From Ulva prolifera (taxonomy: Eukaryota > Chlorophyta > Ulvophyceae > Ulvales > Ulvaceae): a DNA stretch of 64,000 nt. Below are positions 25,019 to 57,477 of this stretch, piece after piece; the first letter of the stretch is position 1; each line of letters starts with the position of its first letter. The notes beneath the pieces are model-generated. The model made no database searches. It saw only the letters and a list, made by a program, of their open reading frames with translations, and was not told where the DNA came from. The translations under genes were made by a program, and so were the position numbers. The stretch spans positions 9,429,315 to 9,493,314 of the forward strand of contig CM041199.1 in assembly GCA_023078555.1 (NCBI GenBank), in the 5' to 3' direction.

Positions 25019-25021
25019 TTG
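25019..25021. other. Junction of satellite A and satellite B
   Basis: Satellite A ends inside a 12-mer (GGGCACTATG then TTG) and satellite B starts inside a monomer (TTGACTCCAATCC), sharing only TTG. No unique DNA, transposon end or degenerate transition zone lies between them. The B sequence just right of the junction matches ordinary interior B sequence (GACTCCAATCCACGGAG also occurs near 37,797 and 38,660). So this is a breakpoint within both arrays, consistent with end joining or microhomology-mediated recombination. Confidence 0.9.
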
Positions 25022-25108
25022 ACTCCAATCCACGGAGTTGACTCCACGGACTTCACTCCACTCCTTACACTTAACTCTACTCCGCTGACTTGACTCCGCG
25101 GACTTGAC

Positions 25109-25130
25109 TCCACGGACTTGCCTCCGTGGA
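25109..25130. repeat. Representative satellite B hairpin (8-bp stem, 6-nt loop)
   Basis: TCCACGGA (25,109-25,116), loop CTTGCC, TCCGTGGA (25,123-25,130): a perfect 8-bp inverted repeat made by two adjacent 14-bp monomers with complementary centres. The same pair recurs through both arms of satellite B, usually just after a TCCGCGGA monomer. A second version has the loop CTTGAC (for example near 54,633). It can form a small hairpin or cruciform; no function can be assigned. Confidence 0.8.
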
Positions 25131-33429: not shown

Positions 33430-34162
33430 GCTGACTTCACTCCACGGACTTCACTCAACTCCTTAGACTTAACTCTACTCCGCTGACTTGACTCCGCGGA
33501 CTTGACTCCACGGACTTGCCTCCGTGGACTTGACTCCGTGGACTTGACTCCACTCCACGGACTTGACTCCACGGACTTCACTCCACTCCTTACACTTAAC
33601 TCTACTCCGCTGACTTGACTCCGCGGACTTGACTCCGCGGACTTGCCTCCGTGGACTTGACTCCACTCCACGGACTTGAATCCACGGACTTCACTTCACT
33701 CCACAGACTTGAATCCACGGACTTCACTTCACTCCACAGACTTGACTCCGTGGACTTGACTCCACTCCACGGACTTGACTCCACGCACTTCACTCCACTC
33801 CGCTGACTTCACTCCACGGACTTCACTCAACTCCTTAGACTTAACTCTACTCCGCTGACTTGACTCTGCGGACTTGACTCCACGGACTTGCCTCCGTGGA
33901 CTTGACTCCGTGGACTTGACTCCACTCCACGGACTTGACTCCACGGACTTCACTCCACTCCTTACACTTAACTCTACTCCGCTGACTTGACTCCGCGGAC
34001 TTGACTCCGCGGACTTGCCTCCGTGGACTTGACTCCACTCCACGGACTTGAATCCACGGACTTCACTTCACTCCACAGACTTGAATCCACGGACTTCACT
34101 TCACTCCACAGACTTGACTCCGTGGACTTGACTCCACTCCACGGACTTGACTCCACGCACTT
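33430..34162. repeat. 372-bp higher-order repeat in B, two tandem copies
   Basis: The order of monomers from CACTCAACTCCTTAGAC onward repeats after 372 bp. Related sequence recurs at longer offsets (about 1,239 and 1,371 bp) across 33.8-36.9 kb, and again right of the transposon at 47.7-48.1 kb (offset 14,253 bp). The second copy has a TCTGCGGA monomer near 33,866 where the first has TCCGCGGA. Confidence 0.7.
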
Positions 34163-37100
34163 CACTCCACTCCGCTGACTTGACTCCACGGATTTGACTC
34201 CACTCCGCTGACTTCACTCCACGGACTTCACTCAACTCCTTAGACTTAACTCTACTCCGTTGACTTGACTCCGCGGACTTGACTCCACGGACTTGCCTCC
34301 GTGGACTTGACTCCACTCCACGGACTTGAATCCACGGACTTCACTCCACTCCACAGACTTGACTCCGTGGACTTGACTCCGTGGACTTGACTCCACTCCA
34401 CGGAGTTGAATCCACGGACTTGACTCCACTCCACGGACTTGAATCCACGGACTTGACTCCACTCCGCTGACTTGACTCCGTGGACTTGACTCCACTCCAC
34501 GGACTTGACTCAACGCACTTCACTCCACTCCGCTGACTTGACTCCACGGATTTGACTCCACTCCGCTGACTTCACTCCACGGACTTCACTCAACTCCTTA
34601 CACTTAACTCTACTCCGCTGGCTTGACTCCGCGGACTTGACTCCACGGACTTGCCTCCGTGGACTTGACTCCACTCCACGGACTTGAATCCACGGACTTC
34701 ACTCCACTCCACAGACTTGACTCCGTGGACTTGACTCCACTCCACGGAGTTGAATCCACGGACTTGACTCCACTCCACGGACTTGAATCCACGGACTTGA
34801 CTCCACTCCGCTGACTTGACTCCTTGAACTTGACTCCACTCCACGGACTTGAATCCACGGACTTCACTTCACTCCACAGACTTGAATCCACGGACTTCAC
34901 TTCACTCCACAGACTTGACTCCGTGGACTTGACTCCACTCCGCTGACTTGACTCCGTGGACTTGACTCCACTCCACGGACTTGACTCCACGCACTTCACT
35001 CCACTCCGCTGACTTGACTCCACGGATTTGACTCCACTCCGCTGACTTCACTCCACGGACTTCACTCAACTCCCTAGACTTAACTCTACTCCGCTGACTT
35101 GACTCCGCGGACTTGACTCCACGGACTTGCCTCCGTGGACTTGACTCCGTGGACTTGACTCCACTCCACGGACTTAACTCCACGGACTTCACTCCACTCC
35201 TTACACTTAACTCTACTCCGCTGACTTGACTCCGCGGACTTGACTCCGCGGACTTGCCTCCGTGGACTTGACTCCACTCCACGGACTTGAATCCACGGAC
35301 TTCACTTCACTCCACAGACTTGAATCCACGGACTTCACTTCACTCCACAGACTTGACTCCGTGGACTTGACTCCACTCCACGGACTTGACTCCACGCACT
35401 TCACTCCACTCCGCTGACTTGACTCCACGGATTTGACTCCACTCCGCTGACTTCACTCCACGGACTTCACTCAACTCCTTAGACTTAACTCTACTCCGTT
35501 GACTTGACTCCGCGGACTTGACTCCACGGACTTGCCTCCGTGGACTTGACTCCACTCCACGGACTTGAATCCACGGACTTCACTCCACTCCACAGACTTG
35601 ACTCCGTGGACTTGACTCCGTGGACTTGACTCCACTCCACGGAGTTGAATCCACGGACTTGACTCCACTCCACGGACTTGAATCCACGGACTTGACTCCA
35701 CTCCGCTGACTTGACTCCTTGAACTTGACTCCACTCCACGGACTTGAATCCACGGACTTCACTTCACTCCACAGACTTGAATCCACGGACTTCACTTCAC
35801 TCCACAGACTTGACTCCGTGGACTTGACTCCACTCCGCTGACTTGACTCCGTGGACTTGACTCCACTCCACGGACTTGACTCCACGCACTTCACTCCACT
35901 CCGCTGACTTGACTCCACGGATTTGACTCCACTCCGCTGACTTCACTCCACGGACTTCACTCAACTCCTTACACTTAACTCTACTCCGCTGGCTTGACTC
36001 CGCGGACTTGACTCCACGGACTTGCCTCCGTGGACTTGACTCCACTCCACGGACTTGAATCCACGGACTTCACTCCACTCCACAGACTTGACTCCGTGGA
36101 CTTGACTCCACTCCACGGAGTTGAATCCACGGACTTGACTCCACTCCACGGACTTGAATCCACGGACTTGACTCCACTCCGCTGACTTGACTCCTTGAAC
36201 TTGACTCCACTCCACGGACTTGAATCCACGGACTTCACTTCACTCCACAGACTTGAATCCACGGACTTCACTTCACTCCACAGACTTGACTCCGTGGACT
36301 TGACTCCACTCCGCTGACTTGACTCCGTGGACTTGACTCCACTCCACGGACTTGACTCCACGCACTTCACTCCACTCCGCTGACTTGACTCCACGGATTT
36401 GACTCCACTCCGCTGACTTCACTCCACGGACTTCACTCAACTCCTTAGACTTAACTCTACTCCGCTGACTTGACTCCGCGGACTTGACTCCACGGACTTG
36501 CCTCCGTGGACTTGACTCCGTGGACTTGACTCCACTCCACGGACTTGACTCCACGGACTTCACTCCACTCCTTACACTTAACTCTACTCCGCTGACTTGA
36601 CTCCGCGGACTTGACTCCGCGGACTTGCCTCCCTGGACTTGACTCCACTCCACGGACTTGAATCCACGCACTTCACTCCACTCCGCTGACTTGACTCCAC
36701 GGATTTGACTCCACTCCGCTGACTTGACTCCACGCACTTCACTCCACTCCGCTGACTTGACTCCACGGACTTGAATCCACTCCACGGACTTGACTCCACG
36801 GACTTCACTCCACTCCTTACACTTAACTCTACTCCGCTGACTTGACTCCGCGGACTTGACTCCACGGACTTGCCTCCGTGGACTTGACTCCACTCCACGG
36901 ACTTGACTCCACGCACTTCACTCCACTCCGCTGACTTGACTCCACGGATATGACTCCACTCCGCTGACTTCACTCCACAGACTTCACTCCACTCCTTAGA
37001 CTGAACTCTACTCCGCTGACTTGACTCCGCGGACTTGACTCCACGGACTTGCCTCCGTGGACTTGACTCCACTCCACGGACTTGAATCCACGGACTTCAC

Positions 37101-37664
37101 TCCACTCCACAGACTTGACTCCGTGGAGTTGACTCCGTGGACTTGACTCCACTCCACGGACTTGAATCCACGGACTTGACTCCACTCCGCTGACTTGACT
37201 CCTTGAACTTGAATCCACTCCACGGACTTGACTCCACGGACTTCACTCCACTCCTTACACTTAAATCTACTCCGCTGACTTGACTCCGCGGACTTGACTT
37301 CACGGACTTGCCTCCGTGGACTTGACTCCACTCCACGGACTTGAATCCACGGACTTCACTCCACTCCACAGACTTGATTCCGTAGACTTGACTCCGTGGA
37401 CTTGACTCCACTCCACGGACTTGACTCCACGCACTGCACTCCACTCTGCTGACTTGACTCCACGGACTTGACTCCACTCCACGGACTTGACTCCACGCAC
37501 TTCACTCCACTCCGCTGACTTGACTCCACGGACTTGAATCCACTCCACGGACTTGACTCCACGGACTTCACTCCACTCCTTACACTTAACTCTACTCTGC
37601 TGACTTGACTCCGCGGACTTGACTCCACGGACTTGCCTCCGTGGTCTTGACTCCACTCCACGGA

Positions 37665-39402
37665 CTTGAATCCACGGACTTCACTCCACTCCACAGACTT
37701 GACTCCGTGGACTTGACTCCACTCCACGGACTTGACTCCACGGATTTGACTCCACTCCGCTGACTTGACTCCACAGACCTGACTCCGTGGATTTGACTCC
37801 AATCCACGGAGTTGACTCCACGGACTTCACTCCACTCCTTAGACTTAACTCGACTCCGCTGGCTTGACTCCGCGGACTTGACTCCACAGCCTTGCCTCCG
37901 TGGACTTGACTCCACTCCACGGACTTTGAATCCACGGACTTCACTCCACTCCACAGACTTGACTCCGTGGACTTGACTCCACTCCACGGACTTGACTCCA
38001 CGCACTTCACTCCACTCCGCTGACTTGACTCCTTGAACTTGAATCCACTCCGCTGACTTGACTCCGCGGACTTGACTCCACGGACTTGCCTCCGTGGACT
38101 TGACTCCACTCCACAGACTTGACTCCACGCACTGCACTCCACTCTGCTGACTTGACTCCACGGACTTGACTCCACTCCACGGACTTGACTCCACACACTT
38201 CACTCCACTCCGCTGACTTGACACCACGGACTTGACTCCACTCCACGGACTTGACTCCACGCACTTCACTCCACTCCGCTGACTTGACTCCACGGACTTG
38301 AATCCACTCCACGGACTTGACTCCACGGACTTCACTCCACTCCTTACACTTAACTCTACTCCGCTGACTTGACTCCGCGGACTTGACTCCACGGACTTGC
38401 CTCCGTGGAGTTGACTCCACTCCACGGACTTGAATCCACGGACTTGACTCCACTCCGCTGACTTGACTCCTTGAACTTGACTCCACTCCACGGACTTGAA
38501 TCCACGGACTTCACTTCACTCCACAGACTTGAATCCACGGACTTCACTCCACTCCACAGACTTGACTCCGTGGACTTGACTCCACTCCACGGACTTGACT
38601 CCACGGATTTGACTCCACTCCGCTGACTTGACTCCACAGACCTGACTCCGTGGATTTGACTCCAATCCACGGAGTTGACTCCACGGACTTCACTCCACTC
38701 CTTAGACTTAACTCGACTCCGCTGGCTTGACTCCGCGGACTTGACTCCACAGCCTTGCCTCCGTGGACTTGACTCCACTCCACGGACTTTGAATCCACGG
38801 ACTTCACTCCACTCCACAGACTTGACTCCGTGGACTTGACTCCACTCCACGGACTTGACTCCACGCACTTCACTCCACTCCGCTGACTTGACTCCTTGAA
38901 CTTGAATCCACTCCGCTGACTTGACTCCGCGGACTTGACTCCACGGACTTGCCTCCGTGGACTTGACTCCACTCCACAGACTTGACTCCACGCACTGCAC
39001 TCCACTCTGCTGACTTGACTCCACGGACTTGACTCCACTCCACGGACTTGACTCCACACACTTCACTCCACTCCGCTGACTTGACACCACGGACTTGACT
39101 CCACTCCACGGACTTGACTCCACGCACTTCACTCCACTCCGCTGACTTGACTCCACGGACTTGAATCCACTCCACGGACTTGACTCCACGGACTTCACTC
39201 CACTCCTTACACTTAACTCTACTCCGCTGACTTGACTCCGCGGACTTGACTCCACGGACTTGCCTCCGTGGAGTTGACTCCACTCCACGGACTTGAATCC
39301 ACGGACTTGACTCCACTCCGCTGACTTGACTCCTTGAACTTGACTCCACTCCACGGACTTGAATCCACGGACTTCACTTCACTCCACAGACTTGAATCCA
39401 CG
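37665..39402. repeat. 863-bp higher-order repeat in B, two tandem copies
   Basis: Positions 37,681 and 38,544, and 38,041 and 38,904, carry the same sequence 863 bp apart. Both copies share rare marks: a monomer junction GGACTTTGAATCC with an extra T, CACAGCCTTGCC, and TTGACACCACGG. The extra T occurs again near 41,711, so it is an inherited variant and not a one-off read error. I saw almost no differences between the copies. Confidence 0.85.
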
Positions 39403-40729
39403 GACTTCACTTCACTCCACAGACTTGACTCCGTGGACTTGACTCCACTCCGCTGACTTGACTCCACGGATTTGACTCCACTCCGCTGACTTGACTCCAC
39501 AGACCTGACTCCATGGATTTGACTCCAATCCACGGACTTGACTCCACGGACTTCACTCCACTCCTTAGACTTAACTCTACTCCGCTGGCTTGACTCCGCG
39601 GACTTGACTCCACGGACTTGAATCCACGGACTTCACTTCACTCCACAGACTTGAATCCACGGACTTCACTTCACTCCACAGACTTGACTCCGTGGACTTG
39701 ACTCCACTCCACGGACTTGACTCCACGGATTTGACTCCACTCCGCTGACTTGACTCCACAGACCTGACTCCGTGGATTTGACTCCAATCCACGGAGTTGA
39801 CTCCACGGACTTCACTCCACTCCTTAGACTTGACTCTACTCCGCTGGCTTGACTCCGCGGACTTGACTCCACGGACTTGAATCCGTGGACTTGACTCCAC
39901 TCCACGGACTTGAATCCACGGACTTCACTTCACTCCACAGACTTGAATCCACGGACTTCACTCCACTCCACAGACTTGACTCCGTGGACTTGACTCCGTG
40001 GACTTGACTCCACTCCACGGACTTGAATCCACGGACTTGACTCCACTCCGCTGACTTGACTCCTTGAACTTGACTCCACTCCACGGACTTGAATCCACGG
40101 ACTTCACTTCACTCCACAGACTTGAATCCACGGACTTCACTTCACTCCACAGACTTGACTCCGTGGACTTGACTCCACTCCGCTGACTTGACTCCACGGA
40201 TTTGACTCCACTCCGCTGACTTGACTCCACAGACCTGACTCCATGGATTTGACTCCAATCCACGGACTTGACTCCACGGACTTCACTCCACTCCTTAGAC
40301 TTAACTCTACTCCGCTGGCTTGACTCCGCGGACTTGACTCCACGGACTTGAATCCACGGACTTCACTTCACTCCACAGACTTGAATCCACGGACTTCACT
40401 TCACTCCACAGACTTGACTCCGTGGACTTGACTCCACTCCACGGACTTGACTCCACGGATTTGACTCCACTCCGCTGACTTGACTCCACAGACCTGACTC
40501 CGTGGATTTGACTCCAATCCACGGAGTTGACTCCACGGACTTCACTCCACTCCTTAGACTTGACTCTACTCCGCTGGCTTGACTCCGCGGACTTGACTCC
40601 ACGGACTTGCCTCCGTGGACTTGACTCCACTCCACGGACTTGAATCCACGGACTTCACTTCACTCCACAGACTTGAATCCACGGACTTCACTCCACTCCA
40701 CAGACTTGACTCCGTGGACTTGACTCCAC
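39275..40729. repeat. 730-bp higher-order repeat in B, two tandem copies
   Basis: The run of monomers repeats at exactly 730 bp (for example 39,407 to 40,137 and 39,577 to 40,307), directly after the 863-bp repeat. A related partial copy follows at an offset of 683 bp around 41.0-41.3 kb. A local difference near 39,881 (CTTGAATCCGTGG against CTTGCCTCCGTGG) separates the copies. Confidence 0.78.
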
Positions 40730-43700
40730 TCCACGGACTTGAATCCACGGACTTCACTCCACTCCACAGACTTGACTCCGTGGACTTGACTCCACTCCAC
40801 GGACTTGAATCCACGGACTTGACTCCACTCCACGGACTTGACTCCACGCACTTCACTCCACTCCGCGGACTTGACTCCACGGATTTGACTCCACTCCGCT
40901 GACTTGACTCCACAGACCTGACTCCATGGATTTGACTCCAATCCACGGACTTGACTCCACGGACTTCACTCCACTCCTTAGACTTAACTCTACTCCGCTG
41001 GCTTGACTCCGCGGACTTGACTCCACGGACTTGAATCCACGGACTTCACTTCACTCCACAGACTTGAATCCACGGACTTCACTTCACTCCACAGACTTGA
41101 CTCCGTGGACTTGACTCCACTCCACGGACTTGACTCCACGGATTTGACTCCACTCCGCTGACTTGACTCCACAGACCTGACTCCGTGGATTTGACTCCAA
41201 TCCACGGAGTTGACTCCACGGACTTCACTCCACTCCTTAGACTTGACTCTACTCCGCTGGCTTGACTCCGCGGACTTGACTCCACGGACTTGCCTCCGTG
41301 GACTTGACTCCACTCCACGGACTTGAATCCACGGACTTCACTCCACTCCACAGACTTGACTCCGTGGACTTGACTCCACTCCACGGACTTGAATCCACGG
41401 ACTTCACTCCACTCCACAGACTTGACTCCGTGGACTTGACTCCACTCCACGGACTTGAATCCACGGACTTGACTCCACTCCACGGACTTGACTCCACGCA
41501 CTTCACTCCACTCCGCTGACTTGACTCCACGGATTTGACTCCACTCCGCTGACTTGACTCCACAGACCTGACTCCGTGGATTTGACTCCAATCCACGGAG
41601 TTGACTCCACGGACTTCACTCCACTCCTTAGACTTAACTCGACTCCGCTGGCTTGACTCCGCGGACTTGACTCCACGGCCTTGCCTCCGTGGACTTGACT
41701 CCACTCCACGGACTTTGAATCCACGGACTTCACTCCACTCCACAGACTTGACTCCGTGGACTTGACTCCACTCCACGGACTTGACTCCACGCACTTCACT
41801 CCACTCCGCTGACTTGACTCCTTGAACTTGAATCCACTACGCTGACTTGACTCCGCGGACTTGACTCCACGGACTTGCCTTCGTGGACTTGACTCCACTC
41901 CACAGACTTGACTCCACGCACTGCACTCCACTCTGCTGACTTGACTCCACGGACTTGACTCCACTCCACGGACTTGACTCCACACACTTCACTCCACTCC
42001 GCTGACTTGACTCCACGGACTTGAATCCACTCCACGGACTTGACTCCACGGACTTCACTCCACTCCTTACACGTAACTCTACTCCGCTGACTTGACTCCG
42101 CGGACTTGACTCCACGGACTTGCCTCCGTGGAGTTGACTCCACTCCACGGACTTGAATCCACGGACTTCACTCCACTCCACAGACTTGACTCCGTGGACT
42201 TGACTCCGTGGACTTGACTCCACTCCACGGACTTGAATCCACGGACTTGACTCCACTCCGCTGACTTGACTCCTTGAACTTGACTCCACTCCACGGACTT
42301 GAATCCACGGACTTCACTTCACTCCACAGACTTGAATCCACGGACTTCACTTCACTCCACAGACTTGACTCCGTGGACTTGACTCCACTCCACGGACTTG
42401 ACTCCACGGATTTGAATCCACTCCGCTGACTTGACTCCACAGACCTGACTCCGTGGATTTGACTCCAATCCACGGAGTTGACTCCACGGACTTCACTCCA
42501 CTCCTTAGACTTAACTCTACTCCGCTGGCTTGACTCCGCGGACTTGACTCCACTCCACGGACTTGAATCCACGGACTTCACTTCACTCCACAGACTTGAA
42601 TCCACGGACTTCACTTCACTCCACAGACTTGACTCCGTGGACTTGACTCCACTCCACGGACTTGACTCCACGGATTTGACTCCACTCCGCGGACTTGACT
42701 CCACAGACCTGACTCCGTGGATTTGACTCCAATCCACGGAGTTGACTCCACGGACTTCACTCCACTCCTTAGACTTGACTCTACTCCGCTGGCTTGACTC
42801 CGCGGACTTGACTCCACGGACTTGCCTCCGTGGACTTGACTCCACTCCACGGACTTGACTCCACGCACTTCACTCCACTCCGCTGACTTGACTCCACGGA
42901 CTTGAATCCACTCCACGGACTTGACTCCACGGACTTCACTCCACTCCTTACACGTAACTCTACTCCGCTGACTTGACTCCGCGGACTTGACTCCACGGAC
43001 TTGCCTCCGTGGAGTTGACTCCACTCCACGGACTTGAATCCACGGACTTCACTCCACTCCACAGACTTGACTCCGTGGACTTGACTCCGTGGACTTGACT
43101 CCACTCCACGGACTTGAATCCACGGACTTGACTCCACTCCGCTGACTTGACTCCTTGAACTTGACTCCACTCCACGGACTTGAATCCACGGACTTCACTT
43201 CACTCCACAGACTTGAATCCACGGACTTCACTTCACTCCACAGACTTGACTCCGTGGACTTGACTCCACTCCACGGACTTGACTCCACGGATTTGAATCC
43301 ACTCCGCTGACTTGACTCCACAGACCTGACTCCGTGGATTTGACTCCAATCCACGGAGTTGACTCCACGGACTTCACTTCACTCCTTACACTTAACTCTA
43401 CTCCGCTGACTTGACTCCGCGGACTTGACTCCGCGGACTTGACTCCACTCCACGGACTTGAATCCACGGACTTCACTTCACTCCACAGACTTGAATCCAC
43501 GGACTTCACTCCACTCCACAGACTTGACTCCGTGGACTTGACTCCACTCCACGGACTTGACTCCACGGATTTGACTCCAATCCACGGAGTTGACTCCACG
43601 GACTTCACTCCACTCCTTAGACTTAAATCTACTCCGCTGGCTTGACTCCGCGGACTTGACTCAACGGACTTGCCTCCGTGGACTTGACTCCACTCCACGG

Positions 43701-43742
43701 ACTTGAATCCACGGACTTCACTCCACTCCACAGACTTGACTC

Positions 43743-43744
43743 CG
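43743..43744. other. Left copy of CG target-site duplication
   Basis: CG completes the satellite motif ACTTGACTCCG immediately before CACAGG. A second CG (47,597-47,598) follows CCTGTG and leads into TGGACTTGAC. The uninterrupted satellite reads ACTTGACTCCGTGGAC with one CG. Because CG is its own reverse complement, it could instead be the outermost 2 bp of the inverted repeats; the empty-site comparison favours a duplication. Confidence 0.7.
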
Positions 43745-43800
43745 CACAGGTCCTACGCCACACTTGCACACCCAGGTGCGCCACTGGACTGGGTGCGCAA
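43745..43800 (+). repeat. Left terminal inverted repeat of the island
   Basis: Compared with the reverse complement of 47,543-47,596, three blocks match in the same order: the terminal CACAGG (with the flanking CG, an 8-bp match), TGCACACCCA at the same distance from the end (43,765-43,774), and TGGGTGCGCAA (43,790-43,800), shifted by 2 bp. The stretches between are diverged. Confidence 0.85.
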
Positions 43801-43804
43801 TCTT

Positions 43805-44328
43805 GGGGTGAGCCGAACCGTAAGTCCTTCGGAAATGCGAGATTTGATGATCTAAAGGTATAATTGTGCTCTAGAGTCAGTTTAACATACTTTGGTGGGC
43901 TTGGAACCCCTGTGATAGCTAGGGGATGCATCTGATGGCCACCCATCACCTTTTTTGCCCACCTGGTGGGTGCTCCACGTCCAAGGGTGCGCCGACTGTG
44001 GGTGAGCTGGTCTAGCAAAGTCACTGCAACCGGGTCTGCGGCGGGCCTAATCGTGTTGGAATGCAAAATCACAGTACCAGAGTTGCTGTATAGCTGTTGG
44101 AATGTGGAGCTGGGTTCCTGGAGCGTGGGTCACTACGAACAGCTCACCCAGAGGGTGTGCCATGGTTCTGAGTGAGGTGTGCTTTGTGGGAACCTGGCCG
44201 ATGAAAGGCCCATCGCCATGGGAATTCGGAGAGCATGGCATGTTACACCATCTCATCAAGTGGAGGAAGGCTGCTAGGCTCAGTCTGCTGGTTGGATACT
44301 GTTTACTATGTAAAGGTTGTGGGTGAGC
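43805..44328. repeat. Left subterminal motif cluster (GGGTGAGC / GGGTGCGC)
   Basis: Copies seen: GGGGTGAGCC at 43,805-43,814, GGGTGCTCC at about 43,968, AGGGTGCGCC at 43,984-43,993, TGGGTGAGCTGG ending at 44,010, the inverted GCTCACCCA at 44,142-44,150, and TGGGTGAGC at 44,320-44,328. Others lie at 46,431-46,439 (TGGGTGAGC), 46,468-46,478 (TGGGTGCGCAG region) and in the right end. Short motifs repeated in both orientations near the ends are typical transposase-binding sites of several DNA transposon superfamilies; binding here is inferred. Confidence 0.6.
43894..43963. other. Nested inverted repeats near the left end of the island
   Basis: An outer 7-bp stem, GGTGGGC (43,894-43,900) with GCCCACC (43,957-43,963), encloses two hairpins: CCCCT/AGGGG (43,907-43,911 with 43,921-43,925, 9-nt loop) and TGATGG/CCATCA (43,933-43,938 with 43,943-43,948, 4-nt loop). 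A run of six T lies at 43,951-43,956. The minus strand has GGTTCCAAGCC, close to a Pol III B box, but no convincing A box or tRNA fold. It could be a structured transposon end or chance in a short GC-rich stretch. Confidence 0.45.
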
Positions 44329-44636
44329 AAGTCAACACTGAGGCGGGCTCAGCACCCACTGCACATGCCAACGTGAATTTGGTTGGCTTAAATCATCTGG
44401 GATGTGTCCGTGAATGGTGAATGGAGATTGCACGTGGTGTCCATGCCGTGTGACTGAACTAAGAAGCCAATTGCGCCATACACCAGATCAGATATCCGTG
44501 CATTCGCATAAATCTGTCACCATTGAAGAGCATGCTGTAATTCGTGGTCGATTGTCCGCAAGGTCTGTCCTAGCAAAGGCCACACAGAGCCATCGACAGC
44601 CCGTTCAATGGTGTTGCAGGCGTAAACAGTTCCGTC

Positions 44637-45002
44637 ATGTCATATCCAACGGTCTACACAAAGTGCAGCATCCTTGAATGCGGCGCATTGCAATGGCGCG
44701 CGATGGTGTTCATGCTTTTAGACGTCGCCGAGGTACGAACAACTGTAGATCAGTGCATCGTTGCCACTCCGCCACACATGGTTGAACATCAGAAGACCCG
44801 TGCAGCTGCCAGCTATGCCGTGTACGCCAGTGCAAGACATGTTATACTGGTGCAATTACATGTCGAAGCGATTGCATGGACAGATAACGGCCAGGACACA
44901 GCATTCGCGTGTAGTACTTGCGGTAGCGTCGCCTGCAGGCAGCCGTCGCTACGAAACATAATTACTTCTGAAGTGGATATTTACCTTTGGTGCGTTAGAT
45001 AA
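44637..45002 (+). CDS. Unassigned open frame, 121 codons
   Basis: ATG-to-stop frame beginning MSYPTVYTKCSILECGAL within the transposon-like island. Composition is mixed, with several cysteines (including a C-x-x-C near residues 91-94) but no zinc-finger arrangement I can name. I recognise no family and saw no splice, promoter or poly(A) signal that fixes it as a gene. A frame this long can arise by chance in 3.85 kb. Confidence 0.12.
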   Translation: MSYPTVYTKCSILECGALQWRAMVFMLLDVAEVRTTVDQCIVATPPHMVEHQKTRAAASYAVYASARHVILVQLHVEAIAWTDNGQDTAFACSTCGSVACRQPSLRNIITSEVDIYLWCVR

Positions 45003-46232
45003 GGCTTGTGATGCTGCGTCGATCAGCTCTTGCATGTCGCGGTGTTAGTTGCAGCTCCCCGTTGCAGTATAACCAGGTGATCTGCATTCACCGATGGCGC
45101 AGATCGTTTCGCAAGTATGTATTACTTCATCCTGCATGGCCTAATATATCTTATGTCTGTACACTGTGCTGTCGCGCACATTTCACGAGCGCTTGTTGTT
45201 TATCACATGTATCCTGATCAAGCCCCTCGAGCAGGCCCCGGGCCCGGCGAAGACAAGGGCGAGCTTGTGTTCGCGTGAGTGACGTTGATTAGACTCTTTG
45301 TTCCATAGAGTGTCTTGAACTGGTGCATACCTCGAAGCGTTTGCCTGATGTCAAGAGCTGTGCGTGCATGCAGGTGCACTTGCTACACCTCTCCAACTTG
45401 AGACACAGATCCGACAGTCAATGTGTATTTTTCAACTTCAACTTCGGAGACCTTTGTTGTGCAGAGGTTCGTTCTGAGACTGTCAAGCTAGCTATTGACT
45501 TTCCGTTGCAGCTTTGGCACAAACGGTCGGTCACATGATACTGATACAGTTGCTGTAAATGGTCACAACGCCTGGCTGTTGTAGCTGATGTCCTGACACG
45601 GACGGCTGCCAGCTCTGGACGTCTCAGGAATGCTTGCTCATGTAGGTCTACGACCAGCACCCAGATTTCAACATACGGAGATTGAGGCATCGACAATCGG
45701 TACAGCCACAATGAGGACATGCAGCATATATCTGCTAACCGAAGTGGCCTGATGGTACAAATGGTTTGCTGCTGCCCCGATAGCTTGCTGCTGTGTTAGG
45801 TCGACTTACGTGTTCAGTCGATCGATAGACTTATTTCGTACGAAGGTGCTCTAGATCTGAATGAAAAAACTGATCGCATGCAGGATGGCAATTGCCACAG
45901 CTTTGGATACCTGACAAGCGCAAGATCTAGACCGATGCAGTAAGCCTAGCATGGCAGGTGTGCATACACTGTCTTGCATCTCTGAATGCCACCTTGCACC
46001 TTCATTATTTTCTGTCCGTGAATTTTTACCCCGTAGATGCCTTGGTCTGTGCAACAAGGCGTCATATCATCTCTGGTATGCAGGAGCAGACTTGGCGAAG
46101 GAGCAGACCTCCTCTCGATCAGGCCACGTTCAATTGTGCAGGGAGCAAGTATATACCAGCTAGTGTTGATTTGATGGTGAATGTTGAGTGTATTTTATGT
46201 ATGGTAGTAAGCAATTTGAGCAAGACTGAGCA

Positions 46233-46721
46233 GTGCATGGTGGGAGCGACTTGAGGTGGTTCAAGGACCACCGTAGATGGGCGCCAGCGATGATAGGAAT
46301 GTACCAAACACGTATTACAATGCTATACCTGATCATGAAGCATCTATTTGATGATTTGCGTGTTCATGCAATTCAGCGCACCCAGCATGCTCACGCATTC
46401 ATGTGTCGCGCACTCGATGGCGCACTCCAATGGGTGAGCCTTGGTTTCACAGGCGCGCAAACGCGAGTGGGTGCGCAGACGCAGAGTGCGCCAACTAGAA
46501 GACGTGCCATATGGCACACAATCAAGGCTTATTGCCCGCTATTATATTGCATAAGTGATCCTGGGCAAAAGTGTTTCCAGGGACATCGAATTGATGAATA
46601 TCGACCGGTGTGCAGTGGCTCGCGAATCGTAACGCACGGAGGCTTCCACATTGTCATCGTGCAACTGGTACTGTGCACTTATCATATGAAAAAGTACTTG
46701 TATTCAGCGAGGTTGTGTTGA
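46233..46721 (+). CDS. Unassigned open frame, 162 codons (longest in the island)
   Basis: ATG-to-stop frame beginning MHGGSDLRWFKDHRRWAP. It is rich in H, R and C, with no transmembrane or signal segment obvious and no transposase catalytic pattern that I can identify. It runs over the internal TGGGTGAGC/GGGTGCGC motif copies at 46,431-46,478, which argues that part of it is motif DNA, not selected coding sequence. It may be chance or a fragment of an intron-containing or decayed transposon gene. Confidence 0.15.
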   Translation: MHGGSDLRWFKDHRRWAPAMIGMYQTRITMLYLIMKHLFDDLRVHAIQRTQHAHAFMCRALDGALQWVSLGFTGAQTRVGAQTQSAPTRRRAIWHTIKAYCPLLYCISDPGQKCFQGHRIDEYRPVCSGSRIVTHGGFHIVIVQLVLCTYHMKKYLYSARLC

Positions 46722-47542
46722 GAGGGGCGTTCGCGAGGGCTGCAACCTCACATTCATGCTTGCAGTGCGCTTTGCTTAAATGGCAACGCCACGTAACCAG
46801 AAGCTTTTGCCACACCATTCCGCGGCTGAGATAATCAGATCTCATCATCGTGAAAACACTGTGGACATGATCGTGGCTTTGCCAGGGATGACATCAGACA
46901 GCTTGGGCATTTTCGCAACAGCACGAACACACACGACACCTGGCATGTCCTGATTTGGTTGGAGTCGGCACTCCCATACATACCAGAGAGCTTTCTATTG
47001 TTCCTGACGTAGACTTCTCGCGCGCACGGCACCTATAGTGGATCTGTCCAACATACAGAGCATACGATGGCCGCACATGTATCTGTCTCACTGCAAGCGC
47101 ACCAGTCACAGGGTGGCATGCAGCAGCATACTACCATAACTAGAGTTCGCCAATTGGCTAAAGCCATACATTTTAGCCTTTTCCGGCCTTGGATCTGGAT
47201 TTCACTATCAATTCGTGCTGCGTTGCCGTGGAGCCATGGCATCACGGAGCGGACACGAGAGAGCCGGATCATGGCAGACCGTGCCGCAAACCAGTCATGT
47301 GTACAAACTAAGTAACTAAGAACATTATTTCACGGTCTGTGCACAATGCTATGTCTCCTGCGTGCCATGTCGCTGTTCGCTGCGTCGCGTCCGAGCCACT
47401 ATCATGAAGCCACGGGAGGCCAAGTTCTCCAGCGATCACCTTCGGAATGCTTCACTGACCCATTAAATGTACATATCTACTACTGTGGGCCTTCGCGAGC
47501 CAAATTGAAGCTATTTCAGCACATTTTATATTTCAGTGCAGC

Positions 47543-47596
47543 TTGCGCACCCAACATGCTCACCCATGGGTGTGCATGCTGGTCGTCTGCCCTGTG
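47543..47596 (-). repeat. Right terminal inverted repeat of the island
   Basis: Read on the minus strand it gives CACAGG, TGCACACCCA and TGGGTGCGCAA in the order seen at the left end. It also holds the palindrome CACCCATGGGTG (47,561-47,572) and a GCTCACCCA motif (47,558-47,566), which join the subterminal motif family. Satellite B resumes at 47,597 with CGTGGACTTG. Confidence 0.85.
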
Positions 47597-48365
47597 CGTG
47601 GACTTGACTCCACTCCACGGACTTGACTCCACGCACTTCACTCCACTCCGCTGACTTGACTCCACGGATTTGACTCCACTCCGCTGACTTCACTCCACGG
47701 ACTTCACTCAACTCCTTAGACTTAACTCTACTCCGCTGACTTGACTCCGCGGACTTGACTCCACGGACTTGCCTCCGTGGACTTGACTCCGTGGACTTGA
47801 CTCCACTCCACGGACTTGACTCCACGGACTTCACTCCACTCCTTACACTTAACTCTACTCCGCTGACTTGACTCCGCGGACTTGACTCCGCGGACTTGCC
47901 TCCGTGGACTTGACTCCACTCCACGGACTTGAATCCACGGACTTCACTTCACTCCACAGACTTGAATCCACGGACTTCACTTCACTCCACAGACTTGACT
48001 CCGTGGACTTGACTCCACTCCACGGACTTGACTCCACGCACTTCACTCCACTCCGCTGACTTGACTCCACGGATTTGACTCCACTCCGCTGACTTCACTC
48101 CACGGACTTCACTCAACTCCTTAGACTTAACTCTACTCCGCTGACTTGACTCCGCGGACTTGACTCCACGGACTTGCCTCCGTGGACTTGACTCCACTCC
48201 ACGGACTTGAATCCACGGACTTCACTCCACTCCACAGACTAGACTCCGTGGACTTGACTCCGTGGACTTGACTCCACTCCACGGACTTGAATCCACGGAC
48301 TTGACTCCACTCCACGGACTTGAATCCACGGACTTGACTCCACTCCGCTGACTTGACTCCTTGAA

Positions 48366-48867
48366 CTTGACTCCACTCCACGGACTTGAATCCACGGACT
48401 TCACTTCACTCCACAGACTTGAATCCACGGACTTCACTCCACTCCACAGACTTGACTCCGTGGACTTGACTCCACTCCACGGACTTGACTCCACGGATTT
48501 GACTCCAATCCACGGAGTTGACTCCACGGACTTCACTCCACTCCTTAGACTTAACTCTACTCCGCTGGCTTGACTCCGCGGACTTGACTCAACGGACTTG
48601 CCTCCGTGGACTTGACTCCACTCCACGGACTTGAATCCACGGACTTCACTCCACTCCACAGACTTGACTCCGTGGACTTGACTCCACTCCACGGACTTGA
48701 CTCCACGCACTTCACTCCACTCCGCTGACTTGACTCCACGGATTTGACTCCACTCCGCTGACTTCACTCCACGGACTTCACTCAACTCCTTAGACTTAAC
48801 TCTACTCCGCTGACTTGACTCCGCGGACTTGACTCCACGGACTTGCCTCCGTGGACTTGACTCCACT
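48366..48867. repeat. Uninterrupted (empty-site) copy of the insertion locus
   Basis: 48,366-48,672 matches the left flank of the island (43,438-43,744, offset 4,928), including the rare ACTCAACGGAC monomer; the one difference noticed is AACTCT here against AAATCT there. 48,673-48,867 matches the right flank (47,599-47,793). The two halves join at CCG|TGG with a single CG. It is a second array copy that never received the insertion, or had it replaced. Confidence 0.85.
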
Positions 48868-51800
48868 CCACGGACTTGAATCCACGGACTTCACTCCACT
48901 CCACAGACTTGACTCCGTGGACTTGACTCCGTGGACTTGACTCCACTCCACGGACTTGAATCCACGGACTTGACTCCACTCCACGGACTTGACTCCACGC
49001 ACTTCACTCCACTCCGCTGAATTGACTCCTTGAACTTGAATCCACTCCACGGACTTGACTCCACGGACTTCACTCCACTCCTTAGACTTAACTCTACTCC
49101 GCTGGCTTGACTCCTTAGACTTAACTCTACTCCGCTGACTTGACTCCTTGAACTTGACTCCACTCCACGGACTTGAATCCACGGACTTCACTTCACTCCA
49201 CAGACTTGAATCCACGGACTTCACTTCACTCCACAGACTTGACTCCGTGGACTTGACTCCACTCCGCTGACTTGACTCCACGGATTTGACTCCACTCCGC
49301 TGACTTGACTCCACAGACCTGACTCCATGGATTTGACTTCAATCCACGGACTTGACTCCACGGACTTCACTCCACTCCTTAGACTTAACTCTACTCCGCT
49401 GGCTTGACTCCGCGGACTTGACTCCACGGACTTGAATCCACGGACTTCACTTCACTCCACAGACTTGAATCCACGGACTTCACTTCACTCCACAGACTTG
49501 ACTCCGTGGACTTGACTCCACTCCACGGACTTGACTCCACGGATTTGACTCCACTCCGCTGACTTGACTCCACGGATTTGACTCCACTCCGCTGACTTGA
49601 CTCCACAGACCTGACTCCATGGATTTGACTTCAATCCACGGACTTGACTCCACGGACTTCACTCCACTCCTTAAACTTAACTCTACTCCGCTGGCTTGAC
49701 TCCGCGGACTTGACTCCACGGACTTGAATCCACGGACTTCACTTCACTCCACAGACTTGAATCCACGGACTTCACTTCACTCCACAGACTTGACTCCGTG
49801 GACTTGACTCCACTCCACGGACTTGACTCCACACACTTCACTCCACTCCGCTGACTTGACACCACGGACTTGACTCCACTCCACGGACTTGACTCCACGC
49901 ACTTCACTCCACTCCGCTGACTTGACTCCACGGACTTGAATCCACTCCACGGACTTGACTCCACGGACTTCACTCCACTCCTTACACTTAACTCTACTCC
50001 GCTGACTTGACTCCGCGGACTTGACTCCACGGACTTGCCTCCGTGGAGTTGACTCCACTCCACGGACTTGAATCCACGGACTTCACTCCACTCCACAGAC
50101 TTGACTCCGTGGACTTGACTCCGTGGACTTGACTCCACTCCACGGACTTGAATCCACGGACTTGACTCCACTCCGCTGACTTGACTCCTTGAACTTGACT
50201 CCACTCCACGGACTTGAATCCACGGACTTCACTTCACTCCACAGACTTGAATCCACGGACTTCACTTCACTCCACAGACTTGACTCCGTGGACTTGACTC
50301 CACTCCGCTGACTTGACTCCACGGATTTGACTCCACTCCGCTGACTTGACTCCACAAACCTGACTCCATGGATTTGACTCCAATCCACGGACTTGACTCC
50401 ACGGACTTCACTCCACTCCTTAGACTTAACTCTACTCCGCTGGCTTGACTCCGCGGACTTGACTCCACTCCACGGACATGAATCCACGGACTTCACTTCA
50501 CTCCACAGACTTGAATCCACGGACTTCACTTCACTCCACAGACTTGACTCCGTGGACTTGACTCCACTCCGCTGACTTGACTCCACGGATTTGACTCCAC
50601 TCCGCTGACTTGACTCCACAGACCTGACTCCATGGATCTGACTTCAATCCACGGACTTGACTCCACGGACTTCACTCCACTCCTTAGACTTAACTCTACT
50701 CCGCTGGCTTGACTCCGCGGACTTGACTCCACGGACTTGCCTCCGTGGACTTGACTCCACTCCACGGACTTGAATCCACGGACTTCACTCCACTCCACAG
50801 ACTTGACTCCGTGGACTTGACTCCACTCCACGGACTTGACTCCACGGATTTGACTCCACTCCGCTGACTTGACTCCACGGATTTGACTCCACTCCGCTGA
50901 CTTCACTCCACGGACTTCACTCCACTCCGCTGACTTGACTCCTTGAACTTGAATCCACTCCACGGACTTGACTCCACGGACTTCACTCCACTCCTTACAC
51001 TTAACTCTACTCCGCTGACTTGACTCCGCGGACTTGACTCCGCGGACTTGCCTCCGTGGACTTGACTCCACTCCACGGACTTGAATCCACGGACTTCACT
51101 TCACTCCACAGACTTGAATCCACGGACTTCACTTCACTCCACAGACTTGACTCCGTGGACTTGACTCCACTCCACGGACTTGACTCCACGCACTGCACTC
51201 CACTCTGCTGACTTGACTCCACGGACTTGACTCCACTCCACGGACTTGACTCCACACACTTCACTCCACTCCGCTGACTTGACACCACGGACTTGACTCC
51301 ACTCCACGGACTAATATCCACGGACTTCACTCCACTCCACAGACTTGACTCCGTGGACTTGACTCCGTGGACTTGACTCCACTCCACGGACTTGAATCCA
51401 CGGACTTGACTCCACTCCGCTGACTTGACTCCTTGAACTTGACTCCACTCCACGGACTTGAATCCACGGACTTCACTTCACTCCACAGACTTGAATCCAC
51501 GGACTTCACTTCACTCCACAGACTTGACTCCGTGGACTTGACTCCACTCCACGGACTTGACTCCACGGATTTGACTCCACTCCGCTGACTTGACTCCACA
51601 GACCTGACTCCATGGATTTGACTCCAATCCACGGACTTGACTCCACGGACTTCACTCCACTCCTTAGACTTAACTCTACTCCGCTGGCTTGACTCCGCGG
51701 ACTTGACTCCACGGACTTGCCTCCGTGGACTTGACTCCACTCCACGGACTTGAATCCACGGACTTCACTCCACTCCACAGACTTGACTCCGTGGACTTGA

Positions 51801-53808
51801 CTCCACTCCACGGACTTGACTCCACGGATTTGACTCCACTCCGCTGACTTGACTCCACAGACCTGACTCCGTGGATTTGACTCCAATCCACGGAGTTGAC
51901 TCCACGGACTTCACTCCACTCCTTAGACTTAACTCTACTCCGCTGGCTTGACTCCGCGGACTTGACTCCACGGACTTGCCTCCGTGGACTTGACTCCACT
52001 CCACGGACTTGAATCCACGGACTTCACTCCACTCCACAGACTTGACTCCGTGGACTTGACTCCACTCCACGGACTTGACTCCACGGACTTGACTCCGTGG
52101 ACTTGACTCCACTCCACGGACTTGACTCCACGCACTTCACTCCACTCCGCTGACTTGACTCCACGGATTTGACTCCACTCCGCTGACTTCACTCCACGGA
52201 CTTCACTTAACTCCTTAGACTTAACTCTACTCCGCTGACTTGACTCCGCGGACTTGACTCCACGGACTTGCCTCCGTGGACTTGACTCCACTCCACGGAC
52301 TTGAATCCACGGACTTCACTCCACTCCACAGACTTGACTCCGTGGACTTGACTCCGTGGACTTGACTCCACTCCAAGGACTTGAATCCACGGACTTGACT
52401 CCACTCCACGGACTTGACTCCACGCACTTCACTCCACTCCGCTGACTTGACTCCTTGAACTTGAATCCACTCCACGGACTTGACTCCACGGACTTCACTC
52501 CACTTCTTACACTTAACTCTACTCCGCTGACTTGACTCCGCGGACTTGACTCCGCGGACTTGCCTCCGTGGACTTGACTCCACTCCACGGACTTGAATCC
52601 ACGGACTTCACTTCACTCCACAGACTTGAATCCACGGACTAAACTTCACTCCACAGACTTGACTCCGTGGACTTGACTCCACTCCACGAACTTGACTCCA
52701 CGGATTTGACTCCACTCCGCTGACTTGACTCCACAGACCTGACTCCATGGATTTGACTCCAATCCACGGACTTGACTCCACGGACTTCACTCCACTCCTT
52801 ACACTTAACTCTACTCCGCTGACTTGACTCCGCGGACTTGACTCCGCGGACTTGCCTCCGTGGACTTGACTCCACTCCACGGACTTGAATCCACGGACTT
52901 CACTTCACTCCACAGACTTGAATCCACGGACTAAACTTCACTCCACAGACTTGACTCCGTGGACTTGACTCCACTCCACGAACTTGACTCCACGGATTTG
53001 ACTCCACTCCGCTGACTTGACTCCACAGACCTGACTCCATGGATTTGACTCCAATCCACGGACATGACTCCACGGACTTCACTCCACTCCTTAGACTTAA
53101 CTCTACTCCGCTGGCTTGACTCCGCGGACTTGACTCCACGGCCTTGCCTCCGTGGACTTGACTCCACTCCACGGACTTGAATCCACGGACTTCACTCCAC
53201 TCCACAGACTTGACTCCGTGGACTTGACTCCACTCCACGGACTTGACTCCACGCACTTCACTCCACTCCGCTGACTTGACTCCACGGATTTGACTCCACT
53301 CCGCTGACTTCACTCCACGGACTTCACTCAACTCCTTAGACTTAACTCTACTCCGCTGACTTGACTCCGCGGACTTGACTCCACGGACTTGCCTCCGTGG
53401 ACTTGACTCCACTCCACGGACTTGAATCCACGGACTTCACTCCACTCCACAGACTTGACTCCGTGGACTTGACTCCGTGGACTTGACTCCACTCCACGGA
53501 CTTGAATCCACGGACTTGACTCCACTCCGCTGACTTGACTCCACAGACCTGACTCCACGGACTTGAATCCACTCCACGGACTTGACTCCACGGACTTCAC
53601 TCCACTCCTTACACTTAACTCTACTCCGCTGACTTGACTCCGCGGACTTGACTCCACGGATTTGCCTCCGTGGACTTGACTCCACTCCACGGACTTGAAT
53701 CCACGGACTTGACTCCACTCCGCTGACTTGACTCTTTGAACTTGACTCCACTCCACGGACTTGAATCCACGGACTTCACTTCACTCCACAGACTTGAATC
53801 CACGGACT

Positions 53809-56040
53809 TCACTTCACTCCACAGACTTGACTCCGTGGACTTGACTCCACTCCACGGACTTGAATCCACGGACTTGACCTCACTCCACGGACTTGACTCC
53901 ACGGATTTGACTCCACTCCGCTGACTTGACTCCACAGACCTGACTCCGTGGATTTGACTCCAATCCACGGAGTTGAATCCACGGACTTCACTCCACTCCC
54001 TAGACTTAACTCTACTCCGCTGGCTTGACTCCGCGGACTTGACTCCACGGACCTGCCTCCGTGGACTTGACTCCACTCCACGGACTTGACTCCACGCACT
54101 TCACTCCACTCCGCTGACTTGACTGCACGGATTTGACTCCACTCCGCTGACTTCACTCCACGGACTTCACTCCACTCCTTAGACTTAACTCTACTCCGCT
54201 GGCTTGACTCCGCGGACTTGACTCCGCGGACTTGCCTCCGTGGACTTGACTCCACTCCACGGACTTGACCCCACGGATTTGACTCCACTCCGCTGACTTG
54301 ACTCCACGGATTTGACTCCACTCCGCTGACTTGACTCCACGGATTTGACTCCACTCCGCTGACTTGACTCCACAGACCTGACTCCATGGATTTGACTCCA
54401 ATCCACGGACTTGACTCCACGGACTTCACTCCACTCCTTAGACTTAACTCTACTCCGCTGGCTTGACTCCGCGGACTTGACTCCACGGACTTGCCTCCGT
54501 GGACTTGACTCCACTCCACGGACTTGAATCCACGGACTTCACTCCACTCCACAGACTTGACTCCGTGGACTTGACTCCACTCCACGGACTTGACTCCACG
54601 GATTTGACTCCACTCCGCGGACTTGACTCCACGGACTTGACTCCGTGGACTTGACTCCACTCCACGGACTTGACTCCACGCACTTCACTCCACTCCGCTG
54701 ACTTGACTCCACGGATTTGACTCCACTCCGCTGACTTCACTCCACGGACTTCACTCAACTCCTTAGACTTAACTCTACTCCGCTGACTTGACTCCGCGGA
54801 CTTGACTCCACGGACTTGCCTCCGTGGACTTGACTCCACTCCACGGACTTGAATCCACGGACTTCACTCCACTCCACAGACTTGACTCCGTGGACTTGAC
54901 TCCGTGGACTTGACTCCACTCCACGGACTTGAATCCACGGACTTCACTCCACTCCACAGACTTGACTCCGTGGACTTGACTCCACTCCACGGACTTGACT
55001 CCACGCACTTCACTCCACTCCGCTGACTTGACTCCACGGATTTGACTCCACTCCGCTGACTTCACTTCACGGACTTCACTCAACTCCTTAGACTTAACTC
55101 TACTCCGCTGACTTGACTCCGCGGACTTGACTCCACGGACTTGCCTCCGTGGACTTGACTCCACTCCACGGACTTGAATCCACGGACTTCACTCCACTCC
55201 ACAGACTTGACTCCACGGATTTGACTCCACTCCGCTGACTTGACTCCACAGACCTGACTCCGTGGATTTGACTCCAATCCACGGAGTTGAATCCACGGAC
55301 TTCACTCCACTCCCTAGACTTAACTCTACTCCGCTGGCTTGACTCCGCGGACTTGACTCCACGGACCTGCCTCCGTGGACTTGACTCCACTCCACGGACT
55401 TGACTCCACGCACTTCACTCCACTCCGCTGACTTGACTCCACGGATTTGACTCCACTCCGCTGACTTCACTCCACGGACTTCACTCCACTCCTTAGACTT
55501 AACTCTACTCCGCTGACTTGACTCCGCGGACTTGACTCCGCGGACTTGCCTCCGTGGACTTGACTCCACTCCACGGACTTGACCCCACGGATTTGACTCC
55601 ACTCCGCTGACTTGACTCCACGGATTTGACTCCACTCCGCTGACTTGACTCCACGGATTTGACTCCACTCCGCTGACTTGACTCCACAGACCTGACTCCA
55701 TGGATTTGACTCCAATCCACGGACTTGACTCCACGGACTTCACTCCACTCCTTAGACTTAACTCTACTCCGCTGGCTTGACTCCGCGGACTTGACTCCAC
55801 GGACTTGCCTCCGTGGACTTGACTCCACTCCACGGACTTGAATCCACGGACTTCACTCCACTCCACAGACTTGACTCCGTGGACTTGACTCCGTGGACTT
55901 GACTCCACTCCACGGACTTGACTCCACGGATTTGACTCCACTCCGCGGACTTGACTCCACGGACTTGACTCCGTGGACTTGACTCCACTCCACGGACTTG
56001 ACTCCACGCACTTCACTCCACTCCGCTGACTTGACTCCAC
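53809..56040. repeat. Higher-order repeat in B, offsets about 1,314-1,380 bp
   Basis: Two compound blocks share the same succession of monomers. Central parts are 1,314 bp apart (for example 54,191 and 55,505), outer parts 1,380 bp apart. Marks include three successive TTGACTCCACGGATTTGACT-type units and GGACTTGACCCCACGG (near 54,262 and 55,576). The two offsets show that about 66 bp of monomers differ between the copies. Confidence 0.65.
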
Positions 56041-57477
56041 GGATTTGACTCCACTCCGCTGACTTCACTCCACGGACTTCACTCAACTCCTTAGACTTAA
56101 CTCTACTCCGCTGACTTGACTCCGCGGACTTGACTCCACGGACTTGCCTCCGTGGACTTGACTCCACTCCACGGACTTGAATCCACGGACTTCACTCCAC
56201 TCCACAGACTTGACTCCGTGGACTTGACTCCGTGGACTTGACTCCACTCCACGGACTTGAATCCACGGACTTGACTCCACTCCGCTGACTTGACTCCACA
56301 GACCTGACTCCACGGACTTGAATCCACTCCACGGACTTGACTCCACGGACTTCACTCCACTCCTTACACTTAACTCTACTCCGCTGACTTGACTCCGCGG
56401 ACTTGACTCCACGGACTTGCCTCCGTGGACTTGACTCCACTCCACGGACTTGAATCCACGGACTTCACTCCACTCCACAGACTTGACTCCGTGGACTTGA
56501 CTCCGTGGACTTGACTCCACTCCACGGACTTGAATCCACGGACTTGACTCCACTCCGCTGACTTGACTCTTTGAACTTGACTCCACTCCACGGACTTGAA
56601 TCCACGGACTTCACTTCACTCCACAGACTTGAATCCACGGACTTCACTTCACTCCACAGACTTGACTCCGTGGACTTGACTCCACTCCACGGACTTGAAT
56701 CCACGGACTTGACTCCACTCCACGGACTTGACTCCACGGATTTGACTCCACTCCGCTGACTTGACTCCACAGACCTGACTCCATGGATTTGACTCCAATC
56801 CACGGACTTGACTCCACGGACTTCACTCCACTCCTTAGACTTAACTCTACTCCGCTGGCTTGACTCCGCGGACTTGACTCCACGGACTTGCCTCCGTGGA
56901 CTTGACTCCACTCCACGGACTTGAATCCACGGACTTCACTCCACTCCACAGACTTGACTCCGTGGACTTGACTCCACTCCACGGACTTGACTCCACGGAT
57001 TTGACTCCACTCCGCTGACTTGACTCCACAGACCTGACTCCGTGGATTTGACTCCAATCCACGGAGTTGACTCCACGGACTTCACTCCACTCCTTAGACT
57101 TAACTCTACTCCGCTGGCTTGACTCCGCGGACTTGACTCCACGGACTTGCCTCCGTGGACTTGACTCCACTCCACGGACTTGAATCCACGGACTTCACTC
57201 CACTCCACAGACTTGACTCCGTGGACTTGACTCCACTCCACGAACTTGACTCCACGGATTTGACTCCACTCCGCTGACTTGACTCCACAGACCTGACTCC
57301 ATGGATTTGACTCCAATCCACGGACTTGACTCCACGGACTTCACTCCACTCCTTAGACTTAACTCTACTCCGCTGGCTTGACTCCGCGGACTTGACTCCA
57401 CGGCCTTGCCTCCGTGGACTTGACTCCACTCCACGGACTTGAATCCACGGACTTCACTCCACTCCACGGACTTGACT

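Follow-up and report, generated by a model that had tools for sequence, protein, structure and literature searches.

Which sequence interrupts a long satellite array of the green alga Ulva prolifera, and did it arrive there by transposition? The window, i.e., the whole stretch of 64,000 nucleotides that was analysed (GenBank assembly GCA_023078555.1, contig CM041199.1, here C4, positions 9429315-9493314), is occupied by satellite A up to about position 25,018 and by satellite B from 25,019 onward. A scan of 100-bp bins detected a single non-repetitive island in it, a 3,852-bp element at 43,745-47,596. The evidence collected from the window and from the genome (88.9 Mb in 44 contigs) indicates that the element is very probably a non-autonomous DNA transposon of the CMCT type (CACTA/EnSpm-Mirage-Chapaev-Transib), moved by a 10.8-kb relative. 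The genome contains 38 matches to PF00504, and one such protein (L049), when compared with the PDB, matched chlorophyll a/b light-harvesting proteins, which points to a green alga; its two best-scoring chains carry the name LHCI, and most of those ranked next are Lhcb/LHCII or chlorophyll a-b binding proteins.

A preliminary description of the window had placed the insertion to the base, as CG-[43,745..47,596]-CG with a 2-bp target duplication, and had noted that the flanks join at 48,672/48,673 of another array copy over about 500 bp with one mismatch. When the flanks (43,438-43,744 plus 47,599-47,793) were joined and aligned to 48,366-48,867 (502 bp), 498 of the first 499 positions matched and the final 3 differed. 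The homology extends 308 bp leftward and 192 bp rightward, and the lone mismatch lies at 43,627, 117 bp left of the junction. The filled site reads TCCG-[CACAGG...CCTGTG]-CGTGG and the empty site TCCGTGG; therefore, the target duplication is CG and the total insert amounts to 3,852 + 2 bp. The alignment bears out the preliminary description on each of these points, and its bounds of 43,743-47,598 correspond to the element plus both CG copies. The insertion into satellite B is real and defined to the base. The features of the insertion site are as follows:

43743..43744, no strand, left CG target duplication (from the flank comparison)
47597..47598, no strand, right CG target duplication (from the flank comparison)
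43438..43744, + strand, left satellite flank, the diagnostic side, 99.67% identical to 48366-48672
47599..47790, + strand, right satellite flank, matched exactly by 48673-48864 and by 8 further units
48366..48864, + strand, empty-site copy, in which the equivalent of the insertion point is 48672/48673

The left 307 bp are diagnostic for the partner unit 48366-48672 (99.67% identity), the runner-up in the window reaching 93.16%. The right 192 bp share 100% identity with 8 window units besides the partner and the query. Since the right side is non-specific, only the left 307 bp single out the partner unit.

A genome search with the element returned 44 matches, including 14 one-piece full-length copies with that of the window counted (13 from base 1 and one from base 4); the remaining copies have nested inserts (L016, L017 and L018) or an internal deletion (L020), or are truncated. 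The other full-length copies end at the bounds given in the preliminary description and none extends past them. Its proposed check, whether each copy is bounded by CACAGG...CCTGTG and a 2-bp repeat, also came out in its favor: 13 of 14 other family insertion events with both ends have a 2-bp duplication. Among the 19 copies in which both ends were read, 18 begin with CACAGG (L012 begins with TCTAGG) and 18 end with CCTGTG (L008 ends with ACTGTG). A 22-base pattern of the 5′ end, allowing one mismatch, was found at 23 places including the relatives, and its reversed control at none; a 14-base pattern of the 3′ end was found at 27 places, and its control at 8.

For the count of target duplications, shared junctions were taken once (L004, L007 and L008 were dropped in favor of L003), and copies lacking an end (L015, L019 and L021-L024) were left out. 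A 2-bp duplication flanked 17 of the resulting 18 insertions, 15 from the family and 3 from the 10.8-kb relative, and a 3-bp duplication flanked none (binomial tail 6e-20 at a chance of 1/16 each); within the family alone the count was 14 of 15 insertion events. The duplicated sequences were CG, AT, TG, CT, AA, CA, GG, GA, GT and AG, with TA absent among the 18 insertions. L012, in spite of its altered first bases, has a GA duplication.

The similarity between copies shows that the mobility of the family is recent. Pairwise identity ranges from 94.7 to 100% among 23 copies or fragments (gaps ignored; 248 pairs that share 200 sites or more), and the family tree has at least three groups. In the largest one, full-length copies from separate events are 99.0-99.6% identical, and such identity of about 99% between copies at different sites points to recent movement, in relative terms only, an absolute date not being possible. 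The window copy is nearest to L020 (99.7%), followed by L002 (97.4%); with L002 as outgroup, the window copy and L020 have 3 private changes each in 2,359 element sites.

The question of what could have moved the element leads to its relative, a 10,778-bp sequence at C4:7943755 (L025/L026). By blastn, the two have three stretches in common at 70-74% identity, namely the 5′-terminal 476 bp, an internal 236 bp and the 3′-terminal 238 bp, and nothing more; 29 of the 30 5′-terminal bases are identical. Further copies of the relative were found on C1 (10,818 bp) and C2 (10,784 bp). The three are flanked by the duplications AT, AG (C1) and GG (C2), and they do not differ in a 349-aa exon. The parts of the element, including those in common with the relative, are as follows:

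43745..47596, + strand, putative non-autonomous transposon, 3,852 bp, CACAGG...CCTGTG, with 13 other full-length copies having the same bounds
43745..43774, + strand, left terminal inverted repeat of 30 nt, with 73% complementarity to its right counterpart and perfect pairing of the outer 6 bp
47567..47596, - strand, right terminal inverted repeat, 30 nt, pairing with 43745..43774
43791..44149, no strand, left subterminal GGGTGVGC/GCBCACCC cluster, with starts at 43791, 43806, 43985, 44000 and 44142
47545..47565, - strand, right subterminal GCBCACCC motifs, with starts at 47545 and 47558
43745..44220, + strand, 5′ 476 bp common with the 10.8-kb element, 69.5% identity
44221..46284, no strand, interior, unmatched by the 10.8-kb element in blastn and showing no sign of a conserved gene (blastn and open reading frame tests)
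46285..46520, + strand, 236 bp common with the 10.8-kb element, 74%, at a nearly equal distance from the 3′ end in both
47359..47596, + strand, 3′ 238 bp common with the 10.8-kb element, 72%

The subterminal motif GGGTGVGC was picked after viewing the sequence. Counted together with its complement, it is present 7 times in the two end stretches of the element (2 x 480 bp, 960 bp in all) versus 0.16 expected, and the maximum in that length among 1000 first-order Markov resamples was 2. Four more are present in the remaining 2,892 bp. In the 10.8-kb relative, the terminal 960 bp contain 6 and the remaining 9,818 bp contain 2. Clustered subterminal repeats are a trait of CACTA transposons, which the element resembles in this respect.

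The relative encodes a transposase whose motifs, in the order D, D, C(2)C, H(4)H and E, fit the CMCT clade. Genome searches with the 349-aa exon and with the downstream exon matched at least 125 and at least 150 segments, respectively (segments, not genes). DGVQLH, ADTPA and C(2)C were present in all 18 paralogues read, some of which are nearly identical to each other. H(4)H was found in 11 of the 12 paralogues whose DNA reaches the downstream exon (L028, with a broken frame, is without it), and the acidic site that follows was found in 12 of 12, as GER or, in L037, as GDR. Both H and the E were invariant in an alignment of 8 paralogues that included a relative with only 32% identity, and the catalytic residues of the relative's transposase are predicted from these motifs. 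A search of the PDB by sequence with a single transposase gave no match, a profile search gave 3 chance-level matches (best E-value 0.49), and no relatives were confirmed in viral contigs.

Which known group do these features suggest? According to PMC12730594, the CMCT clade is characterized by CA..TG ends, duplications of 2-5 bp and a transposase with the order D, D, C(2)C, H(3-4)H, E. The ends of the family are 5′-CA..TG-3′ and 2 bp are duplicated at 17 of 18 insertions (L010 being the exception); the residue order was found in the transposase of the partner only. Since the window element encodes no transposase, its CMCT membership rests on the shared ends. Three groups within reach differ in some respect. 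Plavaka elements, as that source presents them, have 2-bp duplications like those found here (2 bp in PlavakaA, 2 or 3 bp in PlavakaB), but their termini are TGT..ACA (PlavakaA) or CATCA..TGATG (PlavakaB) instead of CACAGG..CCTGTG; ESTA elements, in the same source, duplicate TA, which is absent here. The likeness to plant CACTA/EnSpm elements, as outlined in PMC4158355, consists of the CAC..GTG ends, the terminal inverted repeats and the DDE-type transposase, in this case that of the partner. According to the same article, plant CACTA elements carry a second open reading frame (ORF) beside the transposase; in the 10.8-kb element, frames are open toward the 3′ end (L025:7953-9520), and these may or may not include such an ORF. 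EnSpm-Plavaka transposons were reported in Auxenochlorella, also a green-algal host (PMC12636532), and giant EnSpm elements in Ectocarpus (PMC12477816). No description of the family was found in the literature, a weak negative since the search was made without the species name.

A path for the insertion can be proposed from these data. The 10.8-kb relatives, with their similar ends, would supply the transposase, and this enzyme would identify the element by its CACAGG termini and its subterminal GGGTGVGC repeats. It would excise the element and insert it into satellite B at a break with a 2-bp stagger; repair of the gaps would then yield the CG-CG duplication, and the neighbouring unit 48,366-48,864 would never have been hit. 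We infer both the mobilisation of the element by the transposase of the relative and the cut-and-paste path.

The element itself appears to be protein-free, with no convincing gene. Ten of its ORFs were compared with Pfam and the best E-value was 0.09. Openness of the frames was checked in 16 other copies, not all independent (the 16 include four with one common junction and three with the nested insert left out). The six ORFs of at least 100 aa are open in 8, 1, 1, 1, 14 and 0 of these copies; the 163-aa ORF is open in 8 and the 142-aa ORF in 1, and third positions account for 19 of 56 and 18 of 55 variable sites, respectively, i.e., without excess. Numerous indels among the copies are not multiples of three. 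A coding function for the element was considered and rejected on the Pfam null and the poor frame conservation across the 16 copies.

Several observations weigh against a non-autonomous CMCT element moved by the 10.8-kb relative. Non-autonomous derivatives such as dSpm share their ends with the autonomous element and are without a transposase. The element is alike in both respects, but for about 2.06 kb of its interior blastn finds nothing similar in the 10.8-kb relative, and this interior does not result from a simple internal deletion of the relative. The full-length copy L010 (L010:545-4379), which possibly recombined, is flanked by AA/TT and has no duplication. Of the 22 ORFs of at least 70 aa, those of 78 and 82 aa, one per strand, are open in 16 of 16 copies (variable sites by codon position 9/6/7 and 10/8/10), and the highest share of third positions (13/26) belongs to a 70-aa ORF that 8 of the 16 copies keep open; in view of these frames, the element conceivably encodes a small protein. 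The affiliation of the transposase raises further difficulties. The best E-value that hmmscan returned for 7 paralogues was 0.09, and the only Pfam link is a sub-threshold match (E-value 0.16) of a distant relative to DUF4218 at the H(4)H..E stretch. In a departure from plant CACTA, the partner transposase has no PF02992 match; PF02992 has no match in the genome, but it has none in 14 control genomes either. PMC4158355 gives plant CACTA elements CACTA..TAGTG ends and a 3-bp duplication, whereas the ends here are CACAG..CTGTG and the duplication is 2 bp (3 bp in 0 of 18). Although the element behaves like a CACTA transposon, membership in the canonical plant CACTA group was examined on these two defining features and rejected, neither being found.

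The unmatched interior and the two small ORFs that are always open also favor a different history, in which the element is an old autonomous transposon that moves by itself, its own transposase gene being decayed or unrecognised in the 2-kb interior. The interior (44,221-46,284) does not derive from the 10.8-kb element by deletion, and the full-length copies retain it. However, the 142-aa and 163-aa frames mentioned above are open in one copy and in half of the copies, respectively, have no third-position excess and gave no Pfam match better than 0.09, and copies 99% identical at different sites point to recent movement despite broken frames. We consider a self-moving element unlikely, and mobilisation by the 10.8-kb relative remains the preferred explanation.

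The relationship between the filled and the empty unit bears on the age of the insertion. The left flank picks out the partner and the mismatch at 43,627 is private to the filled copy (the 20-mer with the filled-copy form occurs once in the window and the other form 53 times); thus, the insertion is most likely younger than the split of the filled unit and 48,366-48,864. The preliminary description had dated the insertion after the duplication that made the two copies. Its polarity argument is sound, barring gene conversion or precise excision, and the private substitution agrees with it, but the date is relative and weak, the evidence being 1 change in about 500 bp of flank and the 3 private changes in the element. 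Cut-and-paste elements excise, and the shuffled outer flanks of a co-amplified insertion described below suggest sequence exchange between satellite units. Both points speak for a scenario in which the empty unit 48,366-48,864 lost the element by precise excision or gene conversion, the filled state being older than the duplication. Nonetheless, the empty junction is clean and footprint-free, and the only substitution in the flanks is private to the filled copy. The window contains 33 copies of a 49-bp string that spans the empty junction, partner counted, which identifies the empty site as the normal state of the array. Loss of the element from the empty unit is accordingly improbable, and we infer that this unit is ancestral rather than a product of precise excision. 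That the island was misjoined into the array during assembly, an alternative named in the preliminary description, hardly deserves credence: in its favor are the strong repetitiveness of the array and the end of C4 within another element copy, but a misjoin would not produce a CG duplication with intact ends or a 498/499 flank match to a continuous unit, the same ends are present on copies at other sites, and no sign of one is apparent in the sequence.

Are other copies borne by satellites? Among the fetched family copies, 17 insertion events were distinguished, common junctions being counted once, and tandem-array status was taken from a scan of 0.5-1.5 kb of flank (the window itself was used for its copy). 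Three of the 17 events are in tandem arrays, namely that of the window, L009 and one in a 167-bp satellite. L009 (C4:8,326,317-8,330,137) lies within a 13/45-bp tandem array with the unit TCCGTGTGGAGTG, and its empty-site match is poor (81-91%, mostly gapped). In the 167-bp-period satellite, at C4:10,384,911-11,037,670, L003, L004, L007 and L008 have the same two junctions, and L015 has the same right junction as L003 with the left end deleted, so that the junction is present at five places over 650 kb. The joined L003 flanks match neighbouring empty units gap-free (best 97.3% over 298 bp), which indicates that empty sites exist in this satellite too. No difference separates L003 from L004 in the element or in the adjoining 1,500 bp on either side. 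Within the element, L007 and L008 match L003 at 99.7% identity, and their flanks are nearly identical to those of L003 over the first 100 bp on either side and divergent farther out. Because of the common junctions and the near-identical inner flanks, a single insertion apparently amplified with the satellite is a better explanation than repeated hits on one site. The preliminary description had called a filled and an empty copy in one array rare direct evidence. This is overstated because paralogous empty units remain whenever something inserts into a tandem array; two further arrays host the family, with clear empty units in one.

Other observations concern the copies and their surroundings. 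At L015:760-830, the satellite joins directly to element position ~220, as in a deletion across one junction. Nested inserts occupy L016:3310-4488 (1,179 bp), L017:1695-2452 (758 bp) and L018:1684-3155 (1,472 bp); their ends resemble inverted repeats and they are probably other transposon families. Contig C4 terminates within copy L023 (C4:11,179,400-11,183,602), probably an assembly break at a repeat. The right flank is common to L012 (C7:6.41 Mb), L021 (C3:12.375 Mb) and L022 (C7:6.496 Mb), near contig ends, and these probably represent a duplicated end region. Three of the 17 events lie no more than 110 kb from a contig end (p 0.008), but this was rejected as evidence of enrichment because the cut-off was set in hindsight; limits of 50, 200 and 500 kb gave p values of 0.17, 0.04 and 0.30. 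Capture of the interior from elsewhere was also discarded: of the 44 matches, the weaker ones partly unread, only L023, at a contig end, covers nothing but the interior, and this match is a family fragment. The array that hosts the window copy has the following extent:

25019..64000, + strand, satellite B, 14/19/33-bp based with irregular longer repeats (repeat scan), extending to C4:9496087

A third satellite, 14-bp-based with the unit GCAATCTCGCCCTA, starts where satellite B stops (C4:9496087). It is also found at C4:9,520,000 and ends near 9,521,400 (9,499,314-9,520,000 unread). The three short-unit satellites (A, B and the third) abut directly, at 25,019 of the window and at L057:2774.

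What does the finding mean for the family? The insertion mechanism is ordinary transposition; the family is new and the kind of element already known. The copies may, tentatively, belong to an undescribed and recently active green-algal CMCT lineage with CACAGG ends, a strict 2-bp duplication and a Pfam-missed H(4)H transposase, whose protein-free members repeatedly land in satellites and are multiplied by them without transposition. In one low-copy family, a single satellite insertion, that of the window, and an apparently multiplied one (C4:10.38-11.04 Mb) are both found with empty units beside them. Such filled and empty pairs allow the relative ages of insertion and array turnover to be read. 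The relative's transposase, in turn, points to a group of transposases in this one green-algal genome (at least 125 matching segments, 18 paralogues read) that standard family models miss.

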